Assembly: GCA_902775285.1 (NCBI GenBank)
Contig: CACYLI010000001.1
Coordinates: 62,001 to 126,000 of the forward strand
Source: an uncultured Erysipelotrichaceae bacterium
Lineage (GTDB): Bacteria > Bacillota_I > Bacilli_A > RF39 > UBA660
Reading direction: 5' to 3'
Length of the DNA stretch: 64,000 nt
Positions 1-24,993 of the stretch are shown piece by piece. The stretch's first letter is position 1, and each line of letters starts with the position of its first letter. The notes under the pieces were generated by a model. That model saw nothing but the letters and a program-made list of their open reading frames with translations. It was not told where the DNA came from and did not search any database. A program made the position numbers and the translations under genes.

Positions 1-416
1 TTGTCTTTATATTTATCAATAATTCCAATATCAAACTTTTTAGCATTATCAAATTTTTTATTAATATTTTTAACAAAATCAAATTCAACTATATCATCTA
101 ATTCTATTTCATATGAATATATACTATAATATTTAAATTTTTTAATAAACGGAGATAATATATTTGATAAACTTTTATTTTTTATTTCTTTTAAAAAACT
201 CACATGTAAAATATTATCATCTATTTTTATATAACAATTTTTAAGCATTAAAAATCCATTAATTAAAATTACAAATAAATATATATTTACAATTACAATA
301 GATATTTTAAATATTTGACTTTCAATTTTATTAAATAATACTATAGATATTATTATAATAATTAATATCGTTATTAATTCAATAATTTCCAGTTTATTCT
401 TTCTCTTGATTTTCAT
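1..416 (-). CDS. Hypothetical membrane protein, 3' end outside the window
   Basis: The reverse strand is open from an ATG at 416 to the window edge. The first residues are basic (MKIKRKNK), followed by two hydrophobic segments at about residues 10-28 and 35-56 and then a polar, charged domain. This is the layout of a small bitopic or hairpin membrane protein with a cytoplasmic C-terminal domain. I do not recognise the family. The start overlaps the end of the upstream gene by 23 bases, so the two are probably translationally coupled and belong to the surface-assembly locus. The C-terminus is missing here, so length and domain content cannot be judged. Confidence 0.6.
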   Translation of the reverse strand, partial: MKIKRKNKLEIIELITILIIIIISIVLFNKIESQIFKISIVIVNIYLFVILINGFLMLKNCYIKIDDNILHVSFLKEIKNKSLSNILSPFIKKFKYYSIYSYEIELDDIVEFDFVKNINKKFDNAKKFDIGIIDKYKD

Positions 417-2025
417 ACTCATCACTACTAAAAATAGTATCCTCTTTTGGTAATATATTTAAATAATTATAAATATTTTTTTCTATTTTATCAATAGCTG
501 TCTCAATATGATTTGATTCTCTAGTTAATTTAATATTAAATGGTTTAATTGTTACTTTAAATCTATTATTAAAGTTTTCATTCATTTTTTTATAACATAA
601 ATTTAATTCTATTTCTATTATCCTTACATCTTTTAATAATCTGGAATTAAACATTTTATTAAGTAAGGCTAAATGATTATCAAAAGATAATATTTTATAG
701 GAATTAAACAATATATAAACATTTAATCCAGTCAAATAAGTTTTATCAATATTGTTCATTTTTTCTAAGCTTTCATCAAAACTTGAATACACATAATTAA
801 AATATTCTATTATTTGATTAATATTTTTATTACTTGAAAGTACATTAGAAAAATCATATACTTTTTTAATTTGTTCACTACTTGTATCTTTCTTTTTATA
901 GTCTTTTTCTTCTTTAATAGATAATAAAATATCTAAATCTATATTAAAATCTTTAGAATTAATTAAATCTGTATATTTTTTATAAAGAATACTATTTTCT
1001 AAACTAGATTCTATCTTTAAAATATGATTATTAACAGTAACATAATATATATTTAAAATATCATTATCTTTTCTTAATATATTATGAATAATATTATCTG
1101 GTAAATTGTCAGAAGTAAGTGAATATTCTTTAATTAAAGTAAATCCTTCTTCATCACATAATTTTTGATCTAATTCAACATTATTACCATTAGACACTCC
1201 TAAATCATAAAAAATAATACTTTTTGTATAGTTTTTATTTGAAATTAATAATAATTGATTCTTTTCATTTGATTCTTCTACTATTAAATTAATATTCTTA
1301 ATAAAAGAAAAACTCAAATTATTATTTACACATATAACTTTTTCTTCTACTTTTTCATTTGATGTAAGCCACATAAGTGCATTATATTGTTCATTAACAA
1401 CACTTTTGTTTAATCTTTTATTATTAATAGACATATATCTTATAATTAAATCAGACATATCAAGTATTTCTTTTTTACTTCTAATCTTACTATTATTTAT
1501 AAGACTATTTTTATCTTTAATAGTAAAAATAACTCTATTTATTTTTTTAATATTACATTCTTTACTTGAATCTAATGAATCTAAATAACCTAATGCCCAT
1601 AAAAATACATATACTCTTTCATATAAAGAACTATAATAATTTAATTTTATTTCTGAAATATTCTTTTTAAGTATCTCTTCTACTAAAACCAAATCATCAT
1701 TTTTAAAGATACTTTCTATATTAAATTTATTATTTAATACTTTATATGTAGCATTAATTAAATTAGATGATTTATCTAAAGAATATGTAGCAAAAGTTGC
1801 TAAAGTATAATATATTAATAATTTATCTACAATTTCACTAACTGATTTTATTTTACTAGTATTATTTGTAATAGTATAAATAATCTTTTTTGGATTAACA
1901 AAATTATTGTATTCTAAAAAATCAACATTGTTTTTAATTCTAATCTTATCTATTTCTTCTAATTTATTATCATTTACAATGTTTTCAATATAAATCGTTA
2001 ATTTATCATTTAACTCCTTATTCAT
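394..2025 (-). CDS. Hypothetical cytoplasmic protein (543 aa)
   Basis: This is a Lys/Asn/Ile-rich protein with no signal peptide and no clear membrane segment, probably mostly helical and cytoplasmic. The start is supported by AGGTGA a few bases before the ATG. I do not recognise a family. Residues near position 65 contain the string EIVDKLLIYY, which also occurs near the C-terminus of the unknown protein at 12257-13765 in the same locus, hinting at a shared helix or distant paralogy. The gene lies at the distal end of a run of minus-strand genes and overlaps the next one, which suggests a cytoplasmic accessory of the surface-assembly system. The function is unknown. Confidence 0.6.
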   Translation of the reverse strand: MNKELNDKLTIYIENIVNDNKLEEIDKIRIKNNVDFLEYNNFVNPKKIIYTITNNTSKIKSVSEIVDKLLIYYTLATFATYSLDKSSNLINATYKVLNNKFNIESIFKNDDLVLVEEILKKNISEIKLNYYSSLYERVYVFLWALGYLDSLDSSKECNIKKINRVIFTIKDKNSLINNSKIRSKKEILDMSDLIIRYMSINNKRLNKSVVNEQYNALMWLTSNEKVEEKVICVNNNLSFSFIKNINLIVEESNEKNQLLLISNKNYTKSIIFYDLGVSNGNNVELDQKLCDEEGFTLIKEYSLTSDNLPDNIIHNILRKDNDILNIYYVTVNNHILKIESSLENSILYKKYTDLINSKDFNIDLDILLSIKEEKDYKKKDTSSEQIKKVYDFSNVLSSNKNINQIIEYFNYVYSSFDESLEKMNNIDKTYLTGLNVYILFNSYKILSFDNHLALLNKMFNSRLLKDVRIIEIELNLCYKKMNENFNNRFKVTIKPFNIKLTRESNHIETAIDKIEKNIYNYLNILPKEDTIFSSDEYENQEKE

Positions 2026-2074
2026 TCTTTCACCTATTATAATTATAACAATTTTTTTTAAAATTATAAAGATA

Positions 2075-3031
2075 TTATTCTTCTTTATGAATATATTTCA
2101 TTATACTTAATTTGGCATTCCAATTATTAGTTTTTTTAGATAACTCCATAATTTCATTATTAGTCATTAATCCCATTATTAAATCTATTTGATGATCTAT
2201 TTCAAGATTATTAATAATATTTTCTTTTTCTTCATTTGTTATATTAAGATTATAAATAAACTCTTTATTTGAGATTAAATTAATAATATTATCAAATTTA
2301 TCTTTCTTTTTAGTTCTTAATTTTTCCCAATCTAATATTTCAGGCTTAATTCTATTTATACAAGATGCGAATAGATAAACATAATCAGTAACTGAAATAC
2401 ACATTATGAGTTCATAATTATTCATCATTGAACATAAATCAACACATGTTTTAGTATAAAGTCTTTTATATTTTTCATAGTTTATTTTTCTTTGAATTTT
2501 AGATTTATTGTTTTTTTCAATATTATATGTTATTTCATCGTCTAACATAATCATTAATTGTAAAACACTTTCATCTTTTATTTCTTTTCTCTTATATTGA
2601 TAGTTACTTATTCCAGAGTAAACTAATAAATAATTAATAAAGTCATAAAATCCATTATTAATAATATCATCGCTTTCATTATTAAAAGTATAGAAAATAT
2701 TATTAGATGGTAGAAAACAAAAGAAACTATCTTCTCTTATTTCATTTTGTTGATAATTTTTAACTTCATAATTAAAAGTATAATTAATTAAAGATATAAG
2801 TCTTCTATTATTTTTAACATTTTTTAATTCCTTAATATTCTTTTTATTAATTTTATTATCTTTCTTATTAATAAAAATATGCTTTACAACACTATTATTA
2901 TCACTATTTAAAACAAAATAATAATGTTTTATTTCATTAATAAAACCAGTTGAAAAAATCAAATAAATTCCATCATTTTTATTAATATATTTGTTAGCAA
3001 TCTGTTCATATTCATTAATAATATCATCCAT
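2075..3031 (-). CDS. Hypothetical protein (318 aa)
   Basis: The start was placed at the ATG of MDDIINEYE because GAGGTG lies five bases upstream; an in-frame extension of 14 residues has no ribosome binding site. The product is Asn/Lys/Ile-rich with no signal peptide or convincing transmembrane helix, so it is probably cytoplasmic. I recognise no domain. It is divergent from the TasA-like gene at 3184, with about 150 bases between the two starts that must contain both promoters. It may be a regulator or assembly factor of that neighbour, but nothing in the sequence proves this. Confidence 0.6.
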   Translation of the reverse strand: MDDIINEYEQIANKYINKNDGIYLIFSTGFINEIKHYYFVLNSDNNSVVKHIFINKKDNKINKKNIKELKNVKNNRRLISLINYTFNYEVKNYQQNEIREDSFFCFLPSNNIFYTFNNESDDIINNGFYDFINYLLVYSGISNYQYKRKEIKDESVLQLMIMLDDEITYNIEKNNKSKIQRKINYEKYKRLYTKTCVDLCSMMNNYELIMCISVTDYVYLFASCINRIKPEILDWEKLRTKKKDKFDNIINLISNKEFIYNLNITNEEKENIINNLEIDHQIDLIMGLMTNNEIMELSKKTNNWNAKLSIMKYIHKEE

Positions 3032-3122
3032 AAAAACACCTCGCAACAATAACATTATAAATAAATCAAACAAAAGTGTAAATTATTTTTGTAAACTTGA
3101 CAATAAAATTTTACATTTTGTA

Positions 3123-3183: not shown

Positions 3184-3762
3184 ATGAAAACAAAAAGAAA
3201 AATTATATTTTTTGTAGCTTTATTATCTCTATTCTATTGTGTGACTTTAATCCAAAAAACTTATGCTAAATATGTAAGTAGCGCAAGTGCTTCTGCTGAT
3301 TTAACAGTAGCAAGATGGAATATTTTAATTAATGATCAAGATATTTTAAGAAACTCAGATTTCTCTGATACAATCGTTCCTGTATTTGCTGGAACAAGTA
3401 ATATTAAAAGTGATGTAATTGCTCCAACTGCTGAAGGTTACTTCGATGTAATAATAGATGGAACAAATACTGATGTATCTTATAATTTTACAGTAAGTGC
3501 TAGTCAATCAGTAAGTAACACAGTTACAGATTTAGAAATCTATAAATATTCATTAAATGGAACTGAATATACTTTTAATGGAAATGATATTACTGGAACT
3601 GTATTATTAAATGATACTAATAAAGTTAAATCATTAAGATTCTATATTAGATGGAATGATGATCAAGCAACTGAAACTATGGATAATGAAGAAGATACAG
3701 CAGCTGCTAATTCAGGACTTGCAGCATTCATAGTAAATGTTAATTTAATTCAACAAAGATAA
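3184..3762 (+). CDS. TasA/camelysin-like secreted fibre-type protein
   Basis: The 192-residue product has a basic N-terminus, a hydrophobic core (about residues 7-20) and then ...TYAKYVSSASASADLTVARW. This is the arrangement of SipW-processed TasA/CalY precursors, where cleavage near the Ala/Tyr cluster is followed by a beta-sandwich subunit. The mature part is rich in Thr, Ser, Asn and Asp, as expected for a beta protein. Near the C-terminus comes a hydrophobic strand with an invariant-looking Trp (RFYIRWND) that recurs in the other putative subunits of the locus. It is the only gene of the cluster on the plus strand and is monocistronic, with its own strong promoter and terminator. A SipW-type peptidase is encoded 1.3 kb away. 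Confidence 0.7.
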   Translation: MKTKRKIIFFVALLSLFYCVTLIQKTYAKYVSSASASADLTVARWNILINDQDILRNSDFSDTIVPVFAGTSNIKSDVIAPTAEGYFDVIIDGTNTDVSYNFTVSASQSVSNTVTDLEIYKYSLNGTEYTFNGNDITGTVLLNDTNKVKSLRFYIRWNDDQATETMDNEEDTAAANSGLAAFIVNVNLIQQR

Positions 3763-3808: not shown

Positions 3809-4465
3809 TTAATTATTTAATTGTGTTATATATATTTTAACAACAAGTCTTATACAAGGAGAAGAAGGATTATTTTGTCTAAAAGTATATGCTGTTGTTC
3901 CCCAATATGTATCTAAATCATCATCCCCTGATTCATATGGCCATGCTATTCTTACTATATAAGTCGCTTCTCCATTCTCTGGTTGCATTGTTGAATTTGA
4001 CAATGAAAATGATATTTTAAATGGATAATCAGTTGCTAATTTTGTAACTAATTGTTCACTAGTTAAATCTCCTTCTTGTACAGTTTCACCATTTTCTTGT
4101 CTACCTTCAGTTGTAATATAAGATGTACCCATTACTTCTGCTTCTAATACTTTGAAATCTACACTAGCACTTACTTCACTATAGTTATGTGCTGTAATTG
4201 GTTTTTCATAAGTTGTCATACCTGGATAAACATTATCTACATAAACATTAACATAATCAGTAATTGGTGTGTCTTCAGATTCAAAATCTATATTCCATGA
4301 TTTAACATGAACATCTAAACTATTACTAACTGTATTAATATATATAAACCATGCATAAGAATTAGCTGCAAGTAATACAATTAATATTACTATATGACTA
4401 ATTCTTACTTTTTTAAGAATTTTTAAAAATAAACTTTTTTTCTTTTTCTTATTTTCTTCTTTCAT
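3809..4465 (-). CDS. TasA/camelysin-like secreted protein, paired with the SipW-like peptidase
   Basis: After a Lys-rich N-terminus comes a hydrophobic segment ending in ...LAANSYAWF, a SipW-type signal sequence of the camelysin/TasA class. The mature part is beta-rich with YIVRIAWPYESG near the C-terminus, matching the conserved Trp strand of its paralogs. The ATG at 4465 follows AGGAGG but with only three bases between; upstream in-frame starts at 4480, 4483 or 4492 are possible and would extend the overlap with the peptidase gene. The 3' end of the peptidase gene overlaps this gene, so processing enzyme and substrate are translated together. The likely role is a subunit or initiator of an extracellular fibre. 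Confidence 0.68.
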   Translation of the reverse strand: MKEENKKKKKSLFLKILKKVRISHIVILIVLLAANSYAWFIYINTVSNSLDVHVKSWNIDFESEDTPITDYVNVYVDNVYPGMTTYEKPITAHNYSEVSASVDFKVLEAEVMGTSYITTEGRQENGETVQEGDLTSEQLVTKLATDYPFKISFSLSNSTMQPENGEATYIVRIAWPYESGDDDLDTYWGTTAYTFRQNNPSSPCIRLVVKIYITQLNN

Positions 4466-5021
4466 CTTCCTCCTTTTCATCATCAGAGTCAAACATTGAA
4501 GAAACTATTTCTATTGAAACTATAAGTCCTACTACCATAAATAATATGTAGTAAGATAGTGAATTTGTCATTAATCTTCCAAAAAAACTTAGTATTACTG
4601 TTTTATATACTACTTTTCCTATAACATTATCATATGTTATTTCTGGGTCTTTTTCCATATTAGCAATACCCTTAGTAACAAAATGAGTAACACCATCTTT
4701 TTCATATTTTTTTATTACTCTATGTGTTATAGTTCTACCTTTAAAATCACCTTTTTCGCCTAAATAAGTAACATCATCACCTACTATAATATCTTTTGAT
4801 TCACATTTCTTTGATATAAGTATATCTCCTACTTTATATTCATCATTCATAGATCCAGATGCAATCATATATACTCTAAATCCACCTAAATCTTTATTAG
4901 ATGTTCTTTGTACTATTATTACAATAAGTAATATTACTACAATCGTATATAATAAGAATTTACCTATTCTAAAAAATATATTATTTTCTATTTTTTCTTT
5001 AATGTTTTTAATCTTTTTCAT
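4449..5021 (-). CDS. sipW: SipW-like signal peptidase I (S26B)
   Basis: The protein has an N-terminal membrane helix (about residues 20-37) and the catalytic motif SGSM at 55-58, with Ser57 as nucleophile. THRV follows with His100, giving the Ser/His pair of the archaeal/ER-type S26B peptidases in place of the Ser/Lys pair of ordinary bacterial signal peptidases. A second hydrophobic segment (about 152-172) and an acidic tail complete it. S26B enzymes such as SipW of Bacillus cleave TasA-type precursors during matrix assembly. The gene sits between the DUF2357 gene (4 bases upstream) and an overlapping TasA-like gene, so its natural substrate is probably that neighbour. Confidence 0.88.
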   Translation of the reverse strand: MKKIKNIKEKIENNIFFRIGKFLLYTIVVILLIVIIVQRTSNKDLGGFRVYMIASGSMNDEYKVGDILISKKCESKDIIVGDDVTYLGEKGDFKGRTITHRVIKKYEKDGVTHFVTKGIANMEKDPEITYDNVIGKVVYKTVILSFFGRLMTNSLSYYILFMVVGLIVSIEIVSSMFDSDDEKEEDERRK

Positions 5022-5025: not shown

Positions 5026-6153
5026 TCACCTAAAGTTATATTCTAATATCTTATCTGTAAATGCTTCTAGTCTCTCATTAAACTTACGTTCAACTTCAGC
5101 AATAGAAGCTTCTCTCTTATTCTTAATAATTGCAATCTTATCACCAATAATTTCTTGTATTTTTTCTACAGGTAATTCAGCATTTATTTCTACGATTTTA
5201 TCAATCATTTTATTTGTTAAATCTTCAACTATTTCTGCCTTAGCATCTTCATCTATTTGTGTTTCATCATCATTAATACTAGTAATAGTTAAATATGATA
5301 ATAAGAATGTATCATCTAATAATTGTTTAATTTTAATATCACTATCAATATTTCTTTTATCTCTGACTATTTTTGTATCATCTCTCATATAAGATTGTAA
5401 AAAATCCCATAATTTCATAGCATACTGAAAGTTAACATTTTTTAAAATAACATTTGTCTTTTTTATAGGTGGTATTACCTTAGCAACATGCTCTTTGGCT
5501 AAAGCTACATATACTGGTGTATTAGTTAAATCAGATATTCTCAACTTTAATTTTTCAATTCTTTGATTAACGTTCATTCCGTTTCTCATACCATCTTCTT
5601 TTTCAAAATCTGTTTTAGAACTAATAACACTCTTTATTGTTATTTTTTCAGCACCTATTTTAGTTGCTCCAATATATTCACAAATCTTATCATCTTTCAA
5701 AGAAGAAGCTGATACAAAAGTTTTTTCTTTCATATCAATAAATAGTCTCATATTATTAATTAAAGTATATATAAGTCTATTTTCATAAGTATTATAACTT
5801 TCATCTTTATTAATATTTAATATTTTAGATGGTTTAACATCACCATTATCTTCTATTTCTTGAATATAACTTGTATGTTTAGCTAAATGCTTAATACTTT
5901 CTACAGTTATACGTCTTGCTTGTTCTACTTTAACTATCTCTTCTTCATTAATAATAAATCTATTTGGATTTCTTAAAATATTATCTAAATACATAATTGT
6001 ATCTTCCATAATATTTAACCATGCAAAATCAGCTTCAACCTTTTCATAGTTTGAAGAAAGTGAATATTTTGATCTAATTGAAGCATTAAATTTATTAATT
6101 CTTTGATTATCTGATTCATTATATAAATCAAATACTTTTAAATCATTTTGCAT
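5026..6153 (-). CDS. DUF2357-like protein lacking an obvious nuclease domain
   Basis: The pattern SYNTYENRLIYTLI (about residue 125), followed later by PPIKKTNVILKNVNFQYAMKLW, resembles the DUF2357 family. That family usually sits beside McrB-type AAA+ ATPases in LlaJI/McrBC-like systems and often carries a PD-(D/E)XK nuclease. Here I cannot find a convincing nuclease motif and the protein ends at 375 residues in a charged helix. The gene directly precedes the SipW-like peptidase and follows the AAA+ ATPase by 17 bases, so it is almost certainly the ATPase partner. The DUF assignment comes from pattern memory and would need a profile search. Confidence 0.6.
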   Translation of the reverse strand: MQNDLKVFDLYNESDNQRINKFNASIRSKYSLSSNYEKVEADFAWLNIMEDTIMYLDNILRNPNRFIINEEEIVKVEQARRITVESIKHLAKHTSYIQEIEDNGDVKPSKILNINKDESYNTYENRLIYTLINNMRLFIDMKEKTFVSASSLKDDKICEYIGATKIGAEKITIKSVISSKTDFEKEDGMRNGMNVNQRIEKLKLRISDLTNTPVYVALAKEHVAKVIPPIKKTNVILKNVNFQYAMKLWDFLQSYMRDDTKIVRDKRNIDSDIKIKQLLDDTFLLSYLTITSINDDETQIDEDAKAEIVEDLTNKMIDKIVEINAELPVEKIQEIIGDKIAIIKNKREASIAEVERKFNERLEAFTDKILEYNFR

Positions 6154-6170: not shown

Positions 6171-7709
6171 CTAAGATATTTTCTTTAATCTAAGTACATA
6201 TTCTATACATTCTTTCATTTTATTTTCACCAAATGTTCTATTTAAGAAATTAACAAAACCATCGATTTCATCTCTAATGAAAGAAATATTTAATTGTTCA
6301 AATTTACGAAGTATTTTTTTAGCAATAAAATAATCTACTCCATCAATTTCATCTCCACCACATGCCATATAAACTGGTACAAATTTTTTCATATGAGCAA
6401 CAATTCTGTTACCAAAAGCAATTCTAAAATGTTGAATTACATAATCATCCATTTCTTCAATTTTTCCAAGTACTTCTTCACTCATTTGTATATTATTAAT
6501 AGCATCTTGGAATAATTTATTTAAATAGCTATAATTGATATCTTGAGCTGGTACACTTGTTGGTTCAAAAACTTGTCCTTTATCATTTATATCTATTGGC
6601 ATAGCACGGTCGTAAACCTTATCTGTTACCATAAATGTAGAGTCATCGTTATTGATTGTACCTATATACCAACAGTTTGGTGGTATTTTTAATTTACCAT
6701 TTTTTAAATGTTTTGGATCACTTGGCCAACCAGATGAAACAACTTCAACAATCCATTCATCTTGATTAGGCATTTCTAGAATAGATAACATTTCTGCAAA
6801 GTAGTACTCAACACGTGAGATATTCATTTCATCTAGGATTACTGTATGAATATCATCTGTATACCCTGCTTCATATAATTCTTTTAAAATATCTGTTTCA
6901 TTAAATTTCTTTGTAAATTCATTGAAATATCCAAAAAGTTCTGATCTATCACGCCATGATGGTTGAACTGATGCAACACATGAGTCATGTTTTAAAAATT
7001 TTCCCCAAGCATATGCAAGTGATGTTTTACCAGTACCAGAGATACCTTGTAATATTACAAGTTTTGTACTTGCTAGAGCTGAAATAAATAATCTAATCAT
7101 TTCACTTTTATAATATAAACCTAATTGACTAGCAGCAAAATTTCTAAATAATTCTACTAATTCTGATAATGTAAAACTATTTCCATAATCTAATTGTTTA
7201 TAATCTTGATATTTAACATCAACATCATGTAATTTTGCAAATCTACAATCAGTTGCAGGATTTAATTCTTCTTCTCCATTTTCTCCTTCAGTAGAAGCTG
7301 TTTCTATAGTAGGACTTTCTCCAGGTTTTAATCCTAATTGAGATACTTTCATAGCTAAAATATCTTCTTTTTCTTTCATTAATGTAGCAACCTTACCATT
7401 TAATTCAGATATTTCTTCTAACATAGATTCTTGTTCTACAACTGTTTTTCTAAATCTTAAATATTTCCTAATAATAAATAAGATTAAGAATATTACTAAA
7501 GCAACAAAAGCTAGTATTAATAATAAAGAAACTCCAAATAATACCCATTCTCCTACATTAAAATCTCCTTTATAGTCTTTAGCTATTTGAAGATACATTT
7601 TAAAATTAAAAATCTTTTTAAATCCTTCTATTAATCCTTTAAATATAGATCCAAATCCAGAAAAGAATTGAGATAGAACTTCATAAAAATATTTTAAAAA
7701 TGTTTTCAT
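6171..7709 (-). CDS. Membrane-anchored McrB/MoxR-like AAA+ ATPase
   Basis: Residues 1-48 are amphipathic, 55-80 form a strong transmembrane helix and 88-115 look like coiled coil. An acidic linker leads into an AAA+ module: Walker A GISGTGKT at 222-229, Walker B VILDE at 290-294 followed by MNISR, and the sensor-1 segment GTINNDDS at 350-357. DKVYDRA at 363-369 may supply the arginine finger. The LDE-N-S order is typical of McrB-like ATPases. McrB proteins are normally soluble; the N-terminal anchor here would place the motor at the membrane. Its DUF2357 neighbour and the signal peptidases suggest work on envelope assembly, though a membrane-sited defence role is also possible. Confidence 0.75.
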   Translation of the reverse strand: MKTFLKYFYEVLSQFFSGFGSIFKGLIEGFKKIFNFKMYLQIAKDYKGDFNVGEWVLFGVSLLLILAFVALVIFLILFIIRKYLRFRKTVVEQESMLEEISELNGKVATLMKEKEDILAMKVSQLGLKPGESPTIETASTEGENGEEELNPATDCRFAKLHDVDVKYQDYKQLDYGNSFTLSELVELFRNFAASQLGLYYKSEMIRLFISALASTKLVILQGISGTGKTSLAYAWGKFLKHDSCVASVQPSWRDRSELFGYFNEFTKKFNETDILKELYEAGYTDDIHTVILDEMNISRVEYYFAEMLSILEMPNQDEWIVEVVSSGWPSDPKHLKNGKLKIPPNCWYIGTINNDDSTFMVTDKVYDRAMPIDINDKGQVFEPTSVPAQDINYSYLNKLFQDAINNIQMSEEVLGKIEEMDDYVIQHFRIAFGNRIVAHMKKFVPVYMACGGDEIDGVDYFIAKKILRKFEQLNISFIRDEIDGFVNFLNRTFGENKMKECIEYVLRLKKIS

Positions 7710-9609: not shown

Positions 9610-9653
9610 TTGCCTATTCTCCAATCATAAAAATTATAACATATAAAAAAAGA

Positions 9654-12199: not shown

Positions 12200-12256
12200 A
12201 GAAAACCTCACTCTATCTTCATTTTAATTATAATATTTTATATATTATTAGTCAAA

Positions 12257-16800: not shown

Positions 16801-19800
16801 TCCTCCACCAAATACAGAGCATGTACTTAATACTGAACATGAAGGTGTTCCAATAACTGTTGTACCACCTACTGTAATACTTGTATTTCCATATACAGTA
16901 GCAGTAGAACCATTTCCTCCTGCATATGCACTTCCATTTATGTTAGCATTGTTAATTAATACACTTGTATTTGTTCCAACACTACCTTCATTTCCTCCAC
17001 CATATACATTGTTGATAACTGTTCCACCTTGAATTAATAATGAAGTATCATTTGTTATACCAGCTGCATTTCCACCAGCATATATATTATTTACAGTTCC
17101 ATTTCTCATAAATACACTTGATTTATCAGAAATAGCTCTATTTCCTCCACCATATACATTAGCTATAGTACCATTATTTATTTTAACACTTGTACTTAGT
17201 GTTTTACCTCCGGCGTTATTTCCACCATAGACACTACCTACTTGTCCATTACTAATAACTACATTAGAAGTATCTACGTTTCCGCTTTCATTTGATCCTC
17301 CAAATACATTTGTTACATTTATTACACTTGTTGCATCAGTTGCTTCTAAAGTAATATTTGTACTTGCTGCACCTGCATGATTTCCTCCACCATAAATATT
17401 TGAAATAGTAGATGTCGCATTATGAACTGTAACATTTGTTTCTTCATTTACATAAGCTTCATTTCCACCACCAAATATAGTTGTTAGTGTTCCATCATTA
17501 ACTATTACTTCTGTTGTATCAACTGTTGCTTTATTTCCTCCTCCATAAACAGTAGGTGTTTGTCCACCATTAATAGTTACATGTGTATCTTCTGCTTCAG
17601 CTTGATTTCCTCCACCGAATATTGTAGTAACTTGTCCAGCTGACACTGCTATATTAGTTGTAGTTGTTTTTCCACCAGCGTTATTACCACCATATAAAGT
17701 TGTAACTGTTCCATTATTTATATTTACATTAGATACACTAACATTACCAGCTTGATTAGATCCACCATAAACATTAGTAGCTTTAGCAGTATTATTTAAT
17801 GTTACATTTGTAGTATTTGCTCCAGCTTGATTTCCTCCACCATATACATTTGGTATTGTGTTAGTTGTGTTAGTAATTGTTACAGTAGTGCTTCCACCAA
17901 CGTTTCCTTCGTTACCTCCGCCATAAACTACTGAATTAATTGTTCCATTAGAAATTGTAACATTAGTATTATTTGTAATTCCAGCTTTATTTCCTCCACC
18001 ATATACTGTAGTTAAAGTTCCACCAGAAATTGTAACAGTACTATTTGAAGAAGTAGCTTCATTACCTCCACCAAATACTGTTGTTGTGGTACCTCCAGTA
18101 ATAGTTACTATATTAGTTCCAGTTTCTGCTTCATTACCTCCACCATATATAGTAGTAATTGTTCCTGCAGTTTGATTAACATTAGAATTTGTAGTATTTC
18201 CTCCAGCATTATTACCACCAAATACATTTGTAACTGTTCCGTTGTTAACATTTACATTTGAAGTAGTAACTACTCCAGTTTCATTAGAACCTCCATATAC
18301 ATTTGTAATATTTATAGGTCCACTTCCAGATGCTAGTGTTACATTTGTTGTCGTAGATCCAGCATTATTACCACCACCAAATACATTTGGTATTGTATTA
18401 CCAGTTTTACTTATATTTACATTTGTTGTTGTAGTATTTACTAAGTTTCCACCACCATATATAGCAGTGTTAACAGTAGCACCTGTAACATCTACATTAG
18501 TAGTTGTACAAGTTCCACCTTCATTATTTCCACCAAATACTGTTGAAACAATTCCATTTTGTATATGTACATTTGTTTCGATTACATCACCTAATTGATT
18601 AGATCCTCCATATAGTGTTGTAACAGTTCCACCTCTTAAATAGATATTTGTTTCATCTATAGAAGTTTTATTACCTCCACCATATGCATTAGTAACTGTT
18701 CCACCATCAATATAAACTGTATCAGTTCCTTCTGGTTTACCAGCTTCATCAAATCCACCAAATACATTTGTAATTGTTCCACCATTTATATCAACTGTAA
18801 TATTTCCTTTAACGTAAGGAGTAGCACTAGAACTACCTTTAGCACCTCCAAATACTGATTTTAAAATAGTTCCGTTATTAACTGTAACATTAACTGTATT
18901 TGAATTACTTGATGCAGTAGTAGATAAAGCATTAACAGTACCAAAAGCACTTCCTCCATATACTGAACCATTAATATTTGGTCCACTTGTTGAATCTCCT
19001 ATTGTTACACCTACATTATTTCTAACAAAAGTATTAGCTCCTTCACCACCACCATAAACATCTGTATAAACTTTTCCATTTATGATATTTACATTAGTTG
19101 AACCATATACTTCTCCTTTAGTTCTAGAACCTCCATAAACTGAACCATACACTTCTCCATCATTCATAGTGATATAAATATTTGTAGTATTATTTGAACT
19201 ACCAGCTCCGTTATTGTTTCCTCCACCATATACAGAACCTTTAATTTCACCACCATTTATAACAATATTTGTATTATATGTATTATTACTACCATTTTGT
19301 CCAGTAGCACCAAAGTTTCCTCCACCATATACATTTTTATTTATTGTACAATTTCCATCAATTACAACATTAGAATTATTTACAGTACCAATTGAGCTTT
19401 GGCCTTCTTTACCATTACCAATTCCAAATACACTACCAGCTTCTACTTTACTATAAGATTCAATTGAATTATTTTGTACAAGAGTTGGATTTCCTATAAC
19501 AGCATTACCGCCAATGTATACATAAGAATCAGCATCTAGAGTTCCATCTCCATTGCTACCATCAACACCATTAGATCCACCTAATACTGCATAGTTTACA
19601 CGTCCTCCAGTCACTTGAATAATTCTATTTCCATAAGTTTCACTGACTCCAGCTCCACCTACTATTAAATCTACTTCTCCACCTTTCATATAGATAAATG
19701 CATTATTTAATGTTTTCAAAGTAGATGACGCAAGAGGTCCACCTAAAAGGTTATAAATATATCCACCTTCAATTATAGCAGTTCTTGCAGAATATTGAGT

Positions 19801-22800
19801 ACCATAACCTCTACCACCGACATAAATTCCAGTTGCTTCATCATATTTATTTGTTCCAAAGCTTCCACTTTTAACAATAGTTGTAAATAATGATGAAGTA
19901 CTACTAGCACCATAGTTATTTCCAGACCAAGATCCTGAAATGGTATGTCTATATATTAATCTATTATTTTTATTAGCATCAGTACTTACTCTATCATAAT
20001 CACATCCATATGTAGCAGTAGCTTCTACATATAATGTTTTACTAGAAGAATTTGATGGTGTACTTGTTGATCCATCATTATATAAACCAGATTCAACTAT
20101 TAATCTATATTTTGTAAGATTTGTTCTACTAGTACCAGTACTTGAATTATTTCCTCCAGCAATATAGCCAAAATTAGTTGTTGTTGAATTATATTGTTTA
20201 AGACCTCTTCCAATCTTTAAATTATTATAACCTCCATATATACTTCCATAAGAAGGTCTACCATTATTACCAGAAGATGGCGCACTTTCACCATCAACAG
20301 TATCAACAGATCTAATTTTTATATTATCAATTCTTGTATCTTCACTACAAATAATATATGTATTTCTAACATCCCAAGTATTACTACCTGAATAATCATT
20401 TCCATTATTTAATCCTGTAACAGTGAATGGTTTAGTCTGATTATTAGTCCATGTAGAATTAGAAGTACCACTCATTACAATAACATTCGTATCACGAGTA
20501 GTTAAATAATAATAATTTGTTCCAGAAACTACTACTTCAACATTATTATTTGAATCATAATATTGGATTAATTCATAGTAATTATTACATCCACCATATG
20601 TATTACACCTTCCACTTGTTTGCAAATTTCCATCAGAATTATAATATCCCGCTAAGTTTCCTGAATTTGGAATTGTAATTTTTCTATAAAAGCCTGCAAT
20701 AGATTGCCCTACAGGAACTTCATTAATATAATTTGTTCCAATGACTTGTATTGTATGATAATCCATACCATAATTAGTAAGTTCATAATATGTAGTATTT
20801 GGATCATAACTTCCGGTTGCCGGAACATAACATGTACAATTACCCCAAAATGCTTGACAATTTCCTGTTAAAGGTTGTCCACTTGAGTTTACACTGCCAT
20901 CCGGATATGCTCTACCATTTCTTACAGTTTGACGAGTATAATAATTTGTAATATCTTCATAAATATTTTCAGTTGAAGATATAGTATGATAACCAGAAGA
21001 ATCTAAAGCATTTTGAGCAGCAGTCCAGCTTGAATAAGTAGTTATTTTACCATCAGCCCATGATGCATAAATATCAATATTAATATTAGCTGGATTACTT
21101 CCAGAATAAGTTACAGGTATTTTAACTTGTCTAGTATAAATATTCATATCAAGTGTAATTAAAGCACCACTATAATTAGTTACCCATCCATTAAATGTCT
21201 TATTATTAGGTCTTCTTTCAAATGGATTATCTATTAAATCTATTAAAACATAATCATCACTAGTATTTCCACTAGTTCCATTATTATTAACTTCATATAT
21301 TTTATAATAAACTATTTCATTTTGTGTTTCACTAACAGAAATAGTTCCAGTATAATTGCCTTCTATATCACTACCATGATAATGAACTTCAGTATATACA
21401 AGATTTGTATCATTATATATATTCTTTTTAGTTGTTGTTGGAATAGAACCATCACTAGAATAAGTATAGTTTAATCCATCATAATAATTAGCATCATTTA
21501 AATAATCATTTACATAAACAACTGAACCTTCTATTCCACTATCATGAGCACTTGGAGCATTTCTTACCATTTTCTTAGCTTTTGCTTTAGTTGGAACTGT
21601 ATCATCTTTTCCATTATTAACAATTCTAAATTTATTATCTTCTAATTTCCATTCAAAATCACTATTGTCATTTAAAATACCAACTATTGAACTAGAAGGA
21701 TAATTATTATAAAATGATACCTTATTATTTTTAATTTCATATCTAAATAACAAATCATTTTTTACGTTATAATCTTCTATTAAATCTAGTCCATTAATAT
21801 TATAAACAATATTTTCAACTTGAGAATCACCATATATTTTAATTAAACCAGTTGTGTCATTTATACTACTATTACCATTAACATGAATATTCTTAATAGT
21901 GTTATTACCTTTATCATTAAGAATAAATAAAGATGTTTTAGCATTTTCTTCTTTACCTTCATAATTAACACTTATATTATATAAATTAATATTTTCTATT
22001 TTGCTTGATTCAGCATTTTTAATTAAAGCAATAGTAATATTTTCAACATTATTAGTTATAACTTCATCAGAAGTATCAGTATTTTCTGTATTTTCATCTT
22101 CAGTACTACCAGGTTCTGCGTTTTCTATATTGTTATCAGTAGTATTAGATTCTGCATTATTATTTTCATCTACTTCAGTTTTATTATCTGTAACTACATC
22201 ATCAGTTTTTGTTTCTGTATTAGTTTCTGTCTCTTCTTTTGTTTCAGTAGATGCTGGTGTTTCATTATTAGATGAATTATTATCTTTGTTTTCTGTTTCT
22301 ATATTCTCTGTTGTTTTATTATCAGATTCTTTACTTTCTGTTACTTCGTTTGAATTTTGTTCAGTTTTTATTTCATTGTCATTATTAGTATCTGAAGTAT
22401 TAGTAGTTTCCTCATTTGTATTTTCTAAATTAGAAGCATTATATTCTTCACTACTATTTGTTGATTTAACATTATTTTGTCCTATTATATCTTTTTCTTC
22501 TGCTATAAAAGTAATATCTGAAAAGTTAATGTTTTTTATATTAGCACTATATGTTGAATCAAATAAGCTTAAATTAGCCAACTTTTCTTCATCACTTAAA
22601 TAGTAATTTGATATTTTAAAATTAAATATTGAATATCCATTTCCATCAAAAACTCCACTAAATGATTTACCATCTTGAGCAAATGAAAATTCTTTACCAT
22701 TTAAATTAATATTATTAGTTAAACTATAAAATTTATTGAAATATTCTCCAGATTCATCACCATTTATTATAGAAAAGAAATAAGCCAGTTCACTTCCGGT

Positions 22801-22995
22801 ATTTATGATATATGGATCATCCACACTACCAGAACCATTTTTAAACTTTTTAGCAACTGTTCCATCCCAAATACTAGATGATGTTTTTTCACTAAAAGTA
22901 CTAGTTATTATAAAGAAATTCACAGCAAAAAATAGAAGTATAATTACTACTAATAAACGTTTGTCTTTTAATTTTTCAAGTATTTTTTTGTACAT
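13873..22995 (-). CDS. Giant secreted protein with GGGN beta-repeats (3040 aa)
   Basis: Residues 14-36 form a signal/anchor helix. Residues 44-165 (WDGTVAKKFKNGSGSVDDPY...) resemble the GLUG-type beta-helix entry domains of large surface proteins. Residues about 170-325 are a Thr/Glu/Asn/Ser-rich linker. Residues about 480-1080 form beta-rich domains with scattered Cys. Residues about 1080-2145 carry some 40 repeats of 20-25 residues with the core [VI][YF]GG[GSN]N, a likely right-handed beta-solenoid. The remaining 900 residues are Ig-like. There is no LPxTG, SLH or LysM motif, so attachment may be through the N-terminal helix or by fibre binding. It is probably an adhesin or a matrix scaffold decorated or polymerised with the TasA-like subunits. 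Confidence 0.8.
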   Translation of the reverse strand: MYKKILEKLKDKRLLVVIILLFFAVNFFIITSTFSEKTSSSIWDGTVAKKFKNGSGSVDDPYIINTGSELAYFFSIINGDESGEYFNKFYSLTNNINLNGKEFSFAQDGKSFSGVFDGNGYSIFNFKISNYYLSDEEKLANLSLFDSTYSANIKNINFSDITFIAEEKDIIGQNNVKSTNSSEEYNASNLENTNEETTNTSDTNNDNEIKTEQNSNEVTESKESDNKTTENIETENKDNNSSNNETPASTETKEETETNTETKTDDVVTDNKTEVDENNNAESNTTDNNIENAEPGSTEDENTENTDTSDEVITNNVENITIALIKNAESSKIENINLYNISVNYEGKEENAKTSLFILNDKGNNTIKNIHVNGNSSINDTTGLIKIYGDSQVENIVYNINGLDLIEDYNVKNDLLFRYEIKNNKVSFYNNYPSSSIVGILNDNSDFEWKLEDNKFRIVNNGKDDTVPTKAKAKKMVRNAPSAHDSGIEGSVVYVNDYLNDANYYDGLNYTYSSDGSIPTTTKKNIYNDTNLVYTEVHYHGSDIEGNYTGTISVSETQNEIVYYKIYEVNNNGTSGNTSDDYVLIDLIDNPFERRPNNKTFNGWVTNYSGALITLDMNIYTRQVKIPVTYSGSNPANINIDIYASWADGKITTYSSWTAAQNALDSSGYHTISSTENIYEDITNYYTRQTVRNGRAYPDGSVNSSGQPLTGNCQAFWGNCTCYVPATGSYDPNTTYYELTNYGMDYHTIQVIGTNYINEVPVGQSIAGFYRKITIPNSGNLAGYYNSDGNLQTSGRCNTYGGCNNYYELIQYYDSNNNVEVVVSGTNYYYLTTRDTNVIVMSGTSNSTWTNNQTKPFTVTGLNNGNDYSGSNTWDVRNTYIICSEDTRIDNIKIRSVDTVDGESAPSSGNNGRPSYGSIYGGYNNLKIGRGLKQYNSTTTNFGYIAGGNNSSTGTSRTNLTKYRLIVESGLYNDGSTSTPSNSSSKTLYVEATATYGCDYDRVSTDANKNNRLIYRHTISGSWSGNNYGASSTSSLFTTIVKSGSFGTNKYDEATGIYVGGRGYGTQYSARTAIIEGGYIYNLLGGPLASSTLKTLNNAFIYMKGGEVDLIVGGAGVSETYGNRIIQVTGGRVNYAVLGGSNGVDGSNGDGTLDADSYVYIGGNAVIGNPTLVQNNSIESYSKVEAGSVFGIGNGKEGQSSIGTVNNSNVVIDGNCTINKNVYGGGNFGATGQNGSNNTYNTNIVINGGEIKGSVYGGGNNNGAGSSNNTTNIYITMNDGEVYGSVYGGSRTKGEVYGSTNVNIINGKVYTDVYGGGEGANTFVRNNVGVTIGDSTSGPNINGSVYGGSAFGTVNALSTTASSNSNTVNVTVNNGTILKSVFGGAKGSSSATPYVKGNITVDINGGTITNVFGGFDEAGKPEGTDTVYIDGGTVTNAYGGGNKTSIDETNIYLRGGTVTTLYGGSNQLGDVIETNVHIQNGIVSTVFGGNNEGGTCTTTNVDVTGATVNTAIYGGGNLVNTTTTNVNISKTGNTIPNVFGGGNNAGSTTTNVTLASGSGPINITNVYGGSNETGVVTTSNVNVNNGTVTNVFGGNNAGGNTTNSNVNQTAGTITTIYGGGNEAETGTNIVTITGGTTTTVFGGGNEATSSNSTVTISGGTLTTVYGGGNKAGITNNTNVTISNGTINSVVYGGGNEGNVGGSTTVTITNTTNTIPNVYGGGNQAGANTTNVTLNNTAKATNVYGGSNQAGNVSVSNVNINNGTVTTLYGGNNAGGKTTTTNIAVSAGQVTTIFGGGNQAEAEDTHVTINGGQTPTVYGGGNKATVDTTEVIVNDGTLTTIFGGGNEAYVNEETNVTVHNATSTISNIYGGGNHAGAASTNITLEATDATSVINVTNVFGGSNESGNVDTSNVVISNGQVGSVYGGNNAGGKTLSTSVKINNGTIANVYGGGNRAISDKSSVFMRNGTVNNIYAGGNAAGITNDTSLLIQGGTVINNVYGGGNEGSVGTNTSVLINNANINGSAYAGGNGSTATVYGNTSITVGGTTVIGTPSCSVLSTCSVFGGGNAATTGSENVNNSTALVNIAGATVYGNVYGGANTSKVYGQTSVNIGADVAVGNNVQRGDVSIKGTVFGGGEANASGSDEYDWTFVSVTKAIDVNINGHNYENFEILGSIFGSGNASTTTGTSQITIKNYGTYDNPKKNISIQRTDLLVLNNSSILLIGATDRENEYSDVLFSLSRIDELDLTNNSTLYLETGANLLQEFKSLTSNGSVAQVTINENNKTVTKNVDNRIYMYTGKNLNIAKNQNITDYGEVTGMTFFGMYKYNSNGTINTGIYDKYDYDDTLDWGDVFENVSSYVLGLHKTNHDIEVDGFYTNYMDEATSKNIVNYIEPTPPTGPLYMWTIGAGVIEYEIELVASKYSTLGTIELSLRDFTDPNTSFEIQGFDFSELDPDISLVDKNSIKKIAPTDAEANTVMGLSMQTSNIGWLSNSYTQFITNEQQSYIGDKDYIGGNNDSAPTLLFYLHHSKNITEAASMGKATIKLLSIRQVDALNKESKRLVITVNMSKVLFDTVNYEGAMTAGRKYELFTSSATNITSSSSISAYYSLFNSGASIYRSGYHRGLVSNYVLPLNTKITMIDLAKDTPEYYYHTITASDVTNAQTQLTTSDTVFYNLSMFETMGAVNSGVYYDDVAKNTSYCSTGNYCNEEYIFIIDFGDTQINADSLNNQLLIEIRDNDDEIIYSVLGPQHQDMVYNIYTNKDAIIDMDGTLDRNKIYNGETVIADMTIDYTQSTVGSTTIYDTHYFDSKLGMKISLINEDGDVVTGTTLLGLYYEIDGVRYYPNIDGTTRIKIADKVDSAEKWVIINTGTSKIASGNYTLRFESFGSPDGIYYGLNSSDTKDFAIEIVNEIYGLDVNTTPEEMIINSLTGKNANGEASIKFDIDYNSGLNNPSIHLKMYRRNYNTIDDTTYTLINAQDYFDNALVRDKEKEYIIIDNPNETNSVTFRTKSELITGTYRLEFILYDGSSAIGTVEKYIVIK
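16560..19755 (-). repeat. Coding repeats: about 40 VYGGGN-type units
   Basis: On the plus strand, variants of TTTCCTCCACCATATAC recur about every 60-75 bases. Each encodes [VI][YF]GG[GSN]N preceded by a T/N/V-rich strand such as TNVTISGGT. In the central part six to seven units form a higher-order block in the order GGGNxAG, GGSNxxG, GGNNAGG, GGGNxA, GGGN, GGGN, repeated three times, showing past segmental duplication. Such DNA can expand or shrink by slippage or recombination. Confidence 0.85.
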
Positions 22996-23090: not shown

Positions 23091-23093
23091 TAA

Positions 23094-24170
23094 TTATGGT
23101 GTTTCATTTCCATCATCTAATGAGAATCCAAGTTTATATGTAAGGTCAGAACCTGAAGCGCTGTTTTCACAATCAACATCTTGTCCTTCAATCCACATAT
23201 ATACCCTAATTTTTGTAATTCCAGTGCTTAAATGGAATGCATTAAGTAAATTAGTTTCTTTTGTACTTCCTTTATAAGCTTCTTTATGTTCTTCATCTTG
23301 ATCAGAATAAGCTACATTAGTTCTATATAATGTTGGAACACTTTCAAAGTAAGTAGAACTTGGAGTTCCACCTGTTCCAGGGTTTGTATCTAATAATACG
23401 ATTGGAGTTGATATAGCAGCTTTAACCCCTAAATATGGTACAGCAGCAACTCCTGAAGCAGCAGTTGTTGTGCTAAGTCCATAATATAAACTAGCATTAT
23501 TTGTACCACTTGCTTTATGAGCATCATAGTTTGGTTCAACTACAATTGAAGAGTTTCCACTCATTAATGCTTGTGCAGCAGCTGCAGTTGCTGTTGAAGC
23601 TACATTTCCTTCAATAACAAATGCATATCTTGCAGCATATTGTAAACCTTTATCAGTTGTTTCAGCTTTAACTTTTACACCAGAACCATTTTCTAAATAA
23701 ATATCAGCTCCAGCTTCATCATCAACTTTTAAGAAAATATCAAATGCGATAAAATCTCCAGTTGTACCTTTTGCTTCAGCTGGTGATTTAGTTGCAGTAA
23801 GTGCAAGTTTACCTGCATCAGCTCCAGTTTTAATACCTTCAACAGTACCCTTATAGAAATTTAAATATCCATTAGTAACTGAACCATTTGTTGAAACTGG
23901 TGCTAATTGTGATGGTAATTGATTTGTATTACCACTCCAGTTTGTTGGTGTAGTTATATCAGTATTTGATATTAATGTTTTCCATTCAGTTGCATCAGTT
24001 GAAATTTGCAAACCTGAACTTGCAGCTATACGCACATTGATAGGATCAATTGTTACACTTCTGTTAGCAGTGAACCATGCGTAAGTTGATGTTGATAATA
24101 ATACTATTGTTAAAAATAGTAGTAATACCAATGATTTTAATTTTTTCTTTTTTTCTTTTCTTTTTGCCAT
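23094..24170 (-). CDS. Putative major TasA-like fibre subunit (Ala-rich)
   Basis: The start at 24170 is set by GGAGTGA upstream. A Lys-rich N-terminus, a hydrophobic core and STSTYAWFTANRSVTI form a SipW-type signal. The mature protein is about 325 residues and rich in Ala, Gly, Thr and Ser. It shows less AT-driven codon bias than its neighbours, as expected for an abundant structural protein. The C-terminus holds YMWIEGQDVDCEN, a motif shared with the upstream gene. Size and composition resemble TasA. It is second in a two-gene transcript driven by the strongest-looking promoter in the region and closed by a terminator, so it is my best candidate for the main fibre subunit. Confidence 0.7.
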   Translation of the reverse strand: MAKRKEKKKKLKSLVLLLFLTIVLLSTSTYAWFTANRSVTIDPINVRIAASSGLQISTDATEWKTLISNTDITTPTNWSGNTNQLPSQLAPVSTNGSVTNGYLNFYKGTVEGIKTGADAGKLALTATKSPAEAKGTTGDFIAFDIFLKVDDEAGADIYLENGSGVKVKAETTDKGLQYAARYAFVIEGNVASTATAAAAQALMSGNSSIVVEPNYDAHKASGTNNASLYYGLSTTTAASGVAAVPYLGVKAAISTPIVLLDTNPGTGGTPSSTYFESVPTLYRTNVAYSDQDEEHKEAYKGSTKETNLLNAFHLSTGITKIRVYMWIEGQDVDCENSASGSDLTYKLGFSLDDGNETP

Positions 24171-24175
24171 AAAAA

Positions 24176-24898
24176 TCACTCCAATTCATTTAATGTTTCT
24201 TCTGTATGTTCTTCTATTAATTTCATATGTAATCTAACATGTCCACCAATCAAGGCATTTGTACATTCAGGGTCATCCCCTTCAATCCAAACAACAACTG
24301 TTATTTTGTCAAGATCTCCCGCTTTCATGTCTTTTCTTTGCTCTAAAATTATCATTCCGTCTTCATCATCCCTAAACTTCTTAGTTCCAGGTTCAGCTTC
24401 ACCATCTATACTGTTGCCTTTCGCATAAATAGTTTTCTCATCGTTAACGTAAATCATAATTCTAAGAGCTTCATCGGCATTTTTGATTACATCATCCATT
24501 ACAATAGAATACCAATAATTTAATATTGCTTCCCCTTGATTCTCCATATAGAACGAATATGCAATGTAATTTTTGCCATTATGTGAGCCTTCATACTCCG
24601 TGATATCATCAGGTAACCACTTTATAGATATATTATCCATAAACTGCAAATCTTCTGCTTTAAGTTTTCTCTTTGGAGTAGGATCATTTAATGTTTCATA
24701 CATAGCAAGTCCACTATACAGCATTTTATTATCCTCAAGAGCAACAACAAAACTTCCATCATTAAAAAGTATTTTTAACACAATATAGATAACAATTAAA
24801 AGCAATAAAAGTAATAAAACAGCAAGCTTTGCAAATTTGCCAAGTCTTTGCCAATTTCTTATTTTATTTGCCTTAACTACTACATCCTTTTTTGCCAT
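24176..24898 (-). CDS. Membrane-anchored TasA-related protein
   Basis: The ATG at 24898 follows GGAGGAG; a longer frame from 24925 would start inside the leader hairpin. A basic N-terminus (about 25 residues) precedes a long Leu/Ile helix (about 27-46) without the Ala-Tyr/Trp-Phe junction typical of the secreted subunits, so it may stay anchored. The exported domain ends in VVVWIEGDDPECTN, clearly related to the WIEGxDxxCxN motif of the downstream fibre candidate. It may be a base or anchor subunit, comparable in position to TapA relative to TasA, although I see no sequence link to TapA. The next gene starts five bases after its stop. Confidence 0.65.
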   Translation of the reverse strand: MAKKDVVVKANKIRNWQRLGKFAKLAVLLLLLLLIVIYIVLKILFNDGSFVVALEDNKMLYSGLAMYETLNDPTPKRKLKAEDLQFMDNISIKWLPDDITEYEGSHNGKNYIAYSFYMENQGEAILNYWYSIVMDDVIKNADEALRIMIYVNDEKTIYAKGNSIDGEAEPGTKKFRDDEDGMIILEQRKDMKAGDLDKITVVVWIEGDDPECTNALIGGHVRLHMKLIEEHTEETLNELE

Positions 24899-24926
24899 AA
24901 TACTCCTCCAATGATTAGTAGTCATA

Positions 24927-24958
24927 ATATATGATAGCCACTCTTGTCTATCATATAT
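24927..24958 (-). promoter_or_regulatory. Perfect dyad at the predicted transcript start
   Basis: ATATATGATAG and CTATCATATAT are perfect 11-base arms around a 10-base loop. The dyad begins at about +1 of the promoter just upstream, so it can act as a DNA operator or as a 5'-terminal hairpin stabilising the mRNA for the fibre proteins. Confidence 0.6.
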
Positions 24959-24964
24959 ATTTCA

Positions 24965-24993
24965 ATTATAATCAAATAATTTAAAAAAATCAA
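24965..24993 (-). promoter_or_regulatory. Promoter of the two-gene fibre transcript
   Basis: On the minus strand TTGATT (24993-24988), a 17-base spacer and a perfect TATAAT (24970-24965). The transcript would start near 24958, at the edge of the 11-base dyad. Confidence 0.75.

Follow-up and report, generated by a model that had tools for sequence, protein, structure and literature searches.

A CoCoPALM locus in an uncultured Erysipelotrichaceae bacterium joins a McrB-like NTPase to SipW-type signal peptidases and pilin-like secreted subunits

Fibres of TasA and AbpA are thought to polymerise by donor-strand exchange without a motor. In the tapA-sipW-tasA operon of Bacillus subtilis, SipW adjoins TasA-type subunits, and neither an AAA+/DUF2357 pair nor an EAL protein is known there. 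In McrBC, the McrB-type motor drives a nuclease. FimX is the EAL receptor of type IV pili for c-di-GMP, a signal for biofilm formation and attachment. SipW also accompanies the secreted BsaA matrix proteins of the gut Firmicute Clostridium perfringens (PMC7395162); the opening of its abstract mentions no McrB-like partner, such as the locus studied here has. CoCoPALM was named by Bell, Makarova and Koonin (eLife 2024, PMC11090510) in one paragraph, as an NxD McrB GTPase with an FtsB-like membrane and coiled-coil part, a McrC homologue and linked signal peptidases. The text devoted to it there mentions neither TasA, EAL nor biofilm, and NxD McrB-like GTPases are said to occur mostly in Type IV restriction systems. 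Beyond this naming paragraph CoCoPALM is otherwise uncharacterised.

The locus is a CoCoPALM system, so the arrangement, which the original prediction did not know from described systems, had a name before (PMC11090510). The locus and the described systems have in common the NxD McrB-like GTPase domain, a McrC homologue and linked signal peptidase genes. New here, and added to that description, are SipW fusions to g9 and to DUF2357, a subunit modelled as donor-strand-pilin-like, the predicted EAL fold of g9, true EAL genes and riboswitches in relatives and the catalytic loss in g14, a pseudo-SipW. As in McrBC Type IV restriction, a McrB-type AAA+ protein is paired with a DUF2357 partner; unlike McrBC, the locus has no detected nuclease, is membrane-anchored and is tied to signal peptidases and secreted subunits. 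It resembles tapA-sipW-tasA in that SipW adjoins TasA-type subunits, and differs in its several subunits and SipW copies and in having no sequence-level TasA match. What likens the locus to FimX is the association of a surface fibre with an EAL-type protein, here g9, which is EAL-like by predicted fold; unlike FimX, g9 lacks the EAL motifs and its partners are SipW and the McrB-like protein.

Coordinates refer to the window, the 64,000-nt stretch of contig CACYLI010000001.1 that was analysed, from a gut bacterium. The analysis is computational throughout; it shows which genes are present, their conserved linkage, the fusions, the folds that are predicted and where the riboswitches lie. The cluster spans about 21 kb on the minus strand (3809-24925) and 3184-3762 on the plus strand, where g4 lies opposite to the remaining set. 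The minus-strand genes run 5' to 3' from g18 in unbroken descending order to g5, with intergenic gaps of at most about 110 bp or else gene overlaps. Genes g1-g3 (3-3073) are probably not members of the system, since among the loci compared g2 matches just three proteins and g3 just itself. Promoter scans of the sequence gave no more sites than shuffled sequence, and terminator-like sites were too few for defining transcription units. The SipW, TasA-like, 3040-aa and AAA+/DUF2357 genes claimed previously were all recovered. Three pairs (g14-g13, g12-g11 and g6-g5) each have a TasA-like gene directly 3' of a SipW-type gene; g9, g8 and g7 form the core.

Features of the cluster, with positions in the window
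Gene	Position	Strand	Assignment	Basis
g18	24176..24925	-	249-aa membrane-anchored extracellular protein; W-EGDDP-C motif	ORF, TM prediction, alignment A6
g17	23094..24179	-	361-aa pilin-like secreted protein	Alignment A5 conserved columns
g16	13873..22995	-	3040-aa secreted repeat protein; probable giant surface adhesin	ORF, TM prediction
g15	12257..13765	-	502-aa cytoplasmic protein	No TM predicted
g14	11672..12211	-	SipW-like pseudo-peptidase	TIGR02228 E 0.0015, catalytic columns
g13	11032..11688	-	TasA-like subunit	Family of g4 in alignment A3
g12	10252..10998	-	SipW-like signal peptidase, Ser-His intact	TIGR02228 E 2.8e-22, catalytic columns
g11	9654..10250	-	TasA-like secreted subunit	TM 10-39; position conserved
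g10	8701..9624	-	TasA-like secreted protein, 307 aa	Alignment A7
g9 (N)	7718..8692	-	Cytoplasmic; helical domain and predicted degenerate EAL-fold domain	AF2, Foldseek, SipW fusion
g8	6171..7709	-	Membrane-anchored McrB-like AAA+ NTPase	Alignment A1, PDB profile match, TM prediction
g7	5026..6153	-	DUF2357 (McrC N-domain) protein	PF09823 match
g6	4449..5021	-	SipW-like signal peptidase, Ser-His intact	TIGR02228 E 4.5e-22
g5	3809..4492	-	TasA-like subunit, overlapping g6	Alignment A3
g4	3184..3762	+	TasA-like subunit	AF2 model, Foldseek

One membrane helix is predicted in g8 (TM 49-87), followed by a coiled-coil-like stretch and an AAA+ domain with Walker A (GISGTGKTS), Walker B (LDEMN) and NxD (N353-x-D355 in GTINNDDS) motifs. 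N353 and D355 are invariant in the 30-sequence alignment A1, NxD standing in place of NxxD. McrB was the sole confident PDB match of the g8 profile (E 4e-6); a match to FtsL_2 was weak and sub-threshold (E 0.005). The earlier label of ATPase needs revision, as a McrB-like g8 is probably a GTPase-family protein. Its AAA+ domain matched PADLOC candidate PDC-M26A with an E-value of 2e-34, most strongly over residues 195-320. Five further cytoplasmic proteins were compared with PADLOC and had no match there. For g7, the DUF2357 match had an E-value of 6.7e-10, and no PD-(D/E)xK nuclease was detected: Pfam gave no nuclease match, and an alignment of 32 g7 sequences has no invariant columns beyond residue 238. 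The window's g7 has only a short, helical-looking tail; Clostridia homologues carry long charged repeats.

Across Bacilli and Clostridia, 103 loci had full flanks. SipW lies at most three genes from the AAA+ gene in 98 of these and is absent from five; the DUF2357 gene directly follows the AAA+ gene on its 3' side in 99. The AAA+ gene was found in 100 of 296 genomes of the window's class and in 32 of 117 of its family; it is missing from G058, the other genome of the genus, and the set is thus accessory. SipW was found in 111 of the 117 family genomes, so the AAA+ set is dispensable for SipW function in general. Genomes with the AAA+ gene hold more SipW copies (4.8 against 2.2 per genome, p 1.4e-8).

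As SipW peptidases of the ER/archaeal type, both g6 and g12 exceed the TIGR02228 cut-off and have the Ser-His dyad, and the catalytic residues are intact in 84 of 85 counterparts of g6. In g14, which scores below the cut-off, both catalytic residues are lost: DDDEC replaces SGSM and THR is absent. By its residues g14 is therefore a conserved pseudo-enzyme, and of the three SipW-type genes predicted, all placed as claimed, two look active. Two kinds of fusion were found. In a sister clade, 18 loci carry a SipW-g9 fusion of a single origin; in two Ruminococcus-titled records, DUF2357 is joined to a SipW with an intact TGSMEP site. Together with the conserved neighbourhood, these fusions strongly support placing the intracellular AAA+/DUF2357 set within a locus for an extracellular fibre, as the original prediction did.

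The AF2 model of g9 (pLDDT 92.9) is that of a degenerate EAL domain: the best 49 Foldseek matches in the PDB were all EAL, FimX among the best, at TM-scores that were modest (0.2-0.54) in both fold searches, with the g9 and g4 models. Profile comparison with EAL gave a P of 3.6e-4 (controls 0.33-0.82), using a g9 profile built from unfused proteins, as a version with fused proteins had drifted into SipW. Pfam gave no reliable match for the family, one of 48 members matching EAL at 0.011. The catalytic and c-di-GMP motifs EAL, NxS, ExTE, DDFG and KxD were absent when the g9 alignment was inspected by eye. No GGDEF gene was found in G083 and G114, two genomes with the SipW-g9 fusion, and g9 may for this reason be insensitive to c-di-GMP.

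Related clusters are linked to this messenger. Among the Bacilli, 23 other loci were tested for c-di-GMP-I riboswitches, and 15 have one upstream of the operon; in 11 genomes, 21 of the 36 riboswitches of this class fall in this locus. True EAL genes are present in 15 of 16 Clostridia-type loci. No c-di-GMP riboswitch reached the gathering score in Clostridia loci. As relatives hold both at the same locus, c-di-GMP was probably the ancestral input. A role in the window's own lineage was rejected: the window, the genome it comes from and seven related loci all lacked a c-di-GMP-I riboswitch, and GGDEF, present in 110 of the 117 family genomes, does not separate carriers from other genomes. Pfam detected no EAL gene in the window's genome.

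The AF2 model of subunit g4 (pLDDT 93.1) resembles donor-strand pilins, matching Pap/Fim pilin domains, the TasA fibre and AbpA in Foldseek. The label TasA-like derives from this predicted fold. Sequence identity with TasA was rejected, as the TasA-like genes gave no supporting Pfam, NCBIfam or PDB match, and the claim is limited to a TasA/AbpA/Fim-like predicted fold. TasA/camelysin Peptidase_M73 (PF12389) had no match anywhere in the window's genome.

The account judged reasonably probable is that an NTPase derived from McrBC controls how a surface fibre is matured or assembled with the help of SipW, and that this control was ancestrally subject to c-di-GMP. SipW peptidases would cleave the secreted pilin-type subunits and set them free to polymerise extracellularly through donor-strand exchange, together with the giant surface protein. 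Inside the cell, a McrB-type AAA+ ring, tethered by its membrane helix, would be engaged by the DUF2357 stalk protein. The SipW fusions to DUF2357 and g9 suggest that SipW has replaced McrBC's nuclease as motor output; if so, the motor would use NTP hydrolysis to gate or power the maturation of subunits and the assembly of the fibre, with g9 as a worn-down EAL domain bridging SipW and motor. We infer ring assembly, NTP use, the particular step that is driven, the formation of a fibre and any signal that g9 senses.

The NTPase could instead be a true motor of fibre assembly or retraction, like pilus ATPases, and not a controller of SipW. Membrane anchoring, the conserved core, surface subunits that are nearly always present and deep co-conservation across Bacilli and Clostridia would suit such a motor, yet it is considered unlikely: the fusions involve SipW and not a subunit, nothing like a conserved platform protein with many helices was seen, and TasA and AbpA fibres are thought motor-free. 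Anti-phage defence, with McrB/DUF2357 sensing nucleic acid and a fibre or matrix responding by surface blocking or aggregation, seems improbable. The predominance of NxD McrB-like GTPases in Type IV restriction (PMC11090510) and the PDC-M26A match speak for it; the failure to detect a nuclease in g7, the membrane helix of g8 and the lack of PADLOC matches among five other cytoplasmic proteins argue against it, as do the riboswitches and EAL genes of related operons, which fit attachment and not infection. Chance insertion of a known defence pair among SipW/TasA genes, compatible with the pair's absence from G058, is ruled out for practical purposes by the linkage survey and two independent fusion kinds.

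A defence-type engine appears to be reused for surface attachment, since related clusters are wired to c-di-GMP. There is perhaps an even chance that this is a new, widespread class of Firmicute machine for surface fibres, in which a nucleotide-driven motor of the McrBC type no longer cuts nucleic acid and instead serves a membrane signal peptidase, so that an NTPase under second-messenger control sets the time at which donor-strand surface fibres mature and are built. If true, a restriction-type motor has moved from defence to cell-surface building, and energy enters a TasA-type fibre system thought energy-independent. CoCoPALM was so far a name lacking a function. The fusions and the pilin fold, along with the EAL subunits and the riboswitches for c-di-GMP, now suggest one that can be tested, namely the maturation of surface fibres under control of a signal, in gut Bacilli and Clostridia that are common and for the most part uncultured.

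Among the other secreted proteins, g10 has no sequence relative in the PDB and directly precedes g9, an order conserved within the window's lineage. The g17 signal sequence ends in TYAWF; found in most relatives, g17 has a W-EGQD-DC motif common to g18. The latter opens the set in many relatives, with a membrane segment (TM 26-63) and W-EGDDP-C residues invariant in alignment A6. It has no Pfam relative, and its only PDB match, a designed helical toroid aligned to the charged N-terminus, was taken as spurious. The repeats of g16 are of the VYGGGN type; TM was predicted at its N-terminus only, and neither a Pfam match nor tandem repeats in its DNA were found. Relatives of the cytoplasmic g15 number about 30 sequences. 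In most relatives, large secreted proteins lie close to the locus.

The window's source genome is a 1.44-Mb, AT-rich draft, and uncultured gut records titled Erysipelotrichaceae, Clostridiales, Tenericutes and Bacilli are its closest named relatives among the matches listed. In the candidate fibre locus, an N-terminal hydrophobic segment is present in every member of the extracellular set.

Gene layout of the candidate fibre locus and other features of the window
Feature	Position	Strand	Description
g18 to g5	24925 to 3809	minus	overlapping or no more than about 110 bp apart
g4		plus	terminal end of the gene set
Extracellular set			g18, g17, g16 (3040 aa), g13, g11, g10, g5, g4
Membrane set			g6 and g12 (SipW), g14 (SipW-like)
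Cytoplasmic set			g15, g9, g7; also g8, anchored via one helix at 49-87
Secreted proteins with Ig- or cadherin-like repeats	34800-36131, 39652-42513		two, large
Secreted protein	36132-39443		1103 aa
Protein with YVDD-type reverse transcriptase motif	46766-47947		393 aa
HsdR, HsdM, split HsdS pieces	53941-62071		Type I restriction-modification locus, by eye
Tyrosine recombinase	57932-58912		between HsdS pieces

A Pfam search of the AAA+ protein g8 gave nothing above cut-off, and McrB was the sole confident PDB match of a profile built from 30 homologues (E 4e-6). The g8 alignment is invariant at Walker A (GISGTGKTS), at Walker B (LDEMN) and at the NxD motif (N353-x-D355). In g7, DUF2357 was found at E 6.7e-10, the McrC domain responsible for activating McrB. 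A nuclease family search of g7 returned zero matches, and invariant columns are absent beyond residue 238 in an alignment of 32 homologues. The single confident PADLOC match was that of the AAA+ region of g8 with the candidate model PDC-M26A.

Within the family, 32 of 117 genomes encode a g8 homologue, and within the class 100 of 296 do. Relatives are encoded in at least 545 stretches of named bacterial genomes, and the titles of the best 80 include Bacilli, Tenericutes, Clostridia, Oscillospiraceae, Ruminococcus and Lachnospiraceae. Linkage was assessed in the 103 of 129 distinct loci with three genes on both flanks. SipW lies within three genes of the AAA+ gene in 98 of these (exceptions L061, L067, L114, L115 and L174), while chance linkage is estimated by us at a few per cent, given a few SipW genes per genome of more than 1 Mb. 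A DUF2357 gene follows the AAA+ gene immediately in 99/103. Genomes with g8 carry a mean of 4.8 SipW-type genes versus 2.2 in those without (Mann-Whitney p 1.4e-8), a difference partly accounted for by the locus's own SipW genes.

Some divergent arrangements were also observed. Loci L061, L067, L068 and L069 hold a variant operon, g9-AAA+-DUF2357 followed by a transmembrane protein that has DxDGDG repeats and a C-terminal domain outside the cell; no SipW was seen in this operon, and cell-wall/division genes adjoin it in L061 and L067. L174 (G166:C1:1006000-1025900), also without SipW, has its DUF2357 gene amid three AAA+ homologues of 393, 453 and 470 aa, with a 1676-aa protein adjoining. In L173 and L175 a SipW gene immediately precedes distant 600-aa AAA+ relatives, so the SipW link extends beyond the g8 family.

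Eighteen loci encode a polypeptide of 646-811 aa that combines an N-terminal SipW with a near full-length C-terminal g9 homologue (g9 profile E 1e-39 to 1e-51). This fusion gene sits immediately ahead of the AAA+ gene, and its loci form a single clade on the AAA+ tree with full local support (FastTree). A second fusion occurs in two records titled Ruminococcus (L132, L144): here a SipW domain whose TGSMEP site is intact follows DUF2357 in the same protein, the two being joined by a long charged stretch that looks helical. The majority of the remaining Clostridia and Bacilli loci have a separate SipW gene ahead of the AAA+ gene. Each of the motor's cytoplasmic partners is thus fused to SipW in some lineage.

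The catalytic columns of 246 SipW-type domains were classed by position relative to the AAA+ gene. The Ser-His pair is kept two genes after it (84/85), immediately before it (39/40) and four genes before it (23/23). In the g14 class both residues are gone in most members, the window's g14 having DDDEC in place of SGSM. That this pseudo-peptidase is kept alongside active ones suggests a non-catalytic role, for example subunit holding.

The top matches of a g4 model built from 41 homologues (pLDDT 93.1) include a PapG pilin domain, FimG, the TasA fibre (8aur, at probability 0.99) and, at 0.98, the archaeal bundling pilus AbpA (7ueg). Since TM-scores are low, about 0.2-0.5, and the list also holds other beta-sandwich proteins, g4 is predicted to share with pilin, TasA and AbpA proteins the fold class only. 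None of the sequence searches tied g4 to TasA.

The g9 model (48 homologues, pLDDT 92.9) has an all-helical N-terminal and an alpha/beta C-terminal part, and the top 49 PDB matches of the latter are all EAL domains (TM reaching 0.54 by target length). g9 itself no longer has the EAL motifs. Its profile matched the degenerate EAL proteins of Clostridia loci at P 3.6e-4, against 0.33-0.82 for four control families. Among loci with enough upstream flank, true EAL genes lie within the set in 15 of 16 of Clostridia type and in 27/44 of all those lacking g9, against none of 81 g9-type loci. A g9 relative in L043 and L066 stands immediately before g18, the position of EAL in Clostridia loci; several other Bacilli encode two EAL proteins in succession, the first of ~790-870 aa with its motifs intact and the second shorter, its motifs altered. 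Within the window's family, the EAL search listed such a gene, at E 1e-12 to 1e-13, in G031 and G219, both of one genus, and in none of the other family genomes listed.

Upstream of the operon, c-di-GMP-I riboswitches were found in 15 of 23 scanned Bacilli loci outside the window's family. They score 50-69 bits against a gathering score of 35; up to three occur in tandem, and most lie no more than about 300 bp from the operon's first gene. In 11 of these genomes, selected for having such a match, 21 of 36 riboswitches of this class fall in the AAA+/SipW locus, and in two it is the genome's only one. Scans of the window, its genome, seven loci of its family and nine Clostridia-type loci gave none. 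The window's genome lacks an EAL gene and has one GGDEF protein; a GGDEF search found none in G083 and G114, which both carry the SipW-g9 fusion. For the relatives, then, the c-di-GMP link is firm; for the window's organism it is doubtful.

Bell, Makarova and Koonin (PMC11090510) use the name CoCoPALM for a clade of NxD McrB GTPases that carry an FtsB-like part and are linked to signal peptidases; their account is one paragraph long and defers a fuller one to a later paper. A full-text literature search found no such later treatment. Two of the four features set out there are clear in the window's locus, and none tested was found lacking. The text of PMC11090510 contains no mention of TasA, EAL or biofilm; its supplementary files, outside this check, may list some parts. 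Among the papers listed by literature searches on c-di-GMP riboswitches with SipW, there was no report of an AAA+/DUF2357/SipW system.

The DUF2357 stalk of McrBC is the link between the McrB ring and the nuclease (PMC11090510). The window's system differs in that no nuclease is detected, and in relatives SipW is fused to the DUF2357 partner or to g9. The simplest reading from this is that the ring would act on, or through, SipW at the membrane, with subunit release or polymerisation only while the motor runs. Whether the motor pulls, gates or times the subunit step we can only infer.

Elsewhere in the window, the recombinase between the HsdS pieces suggests a switchable specificity gene, and the reverse transcriptase-like protein possibly belongs to a retron or is another defence RT. 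The 1103-aa protein, by reading, has a dockerin-like C-terminus and is adjoined by the two repeat proteins.
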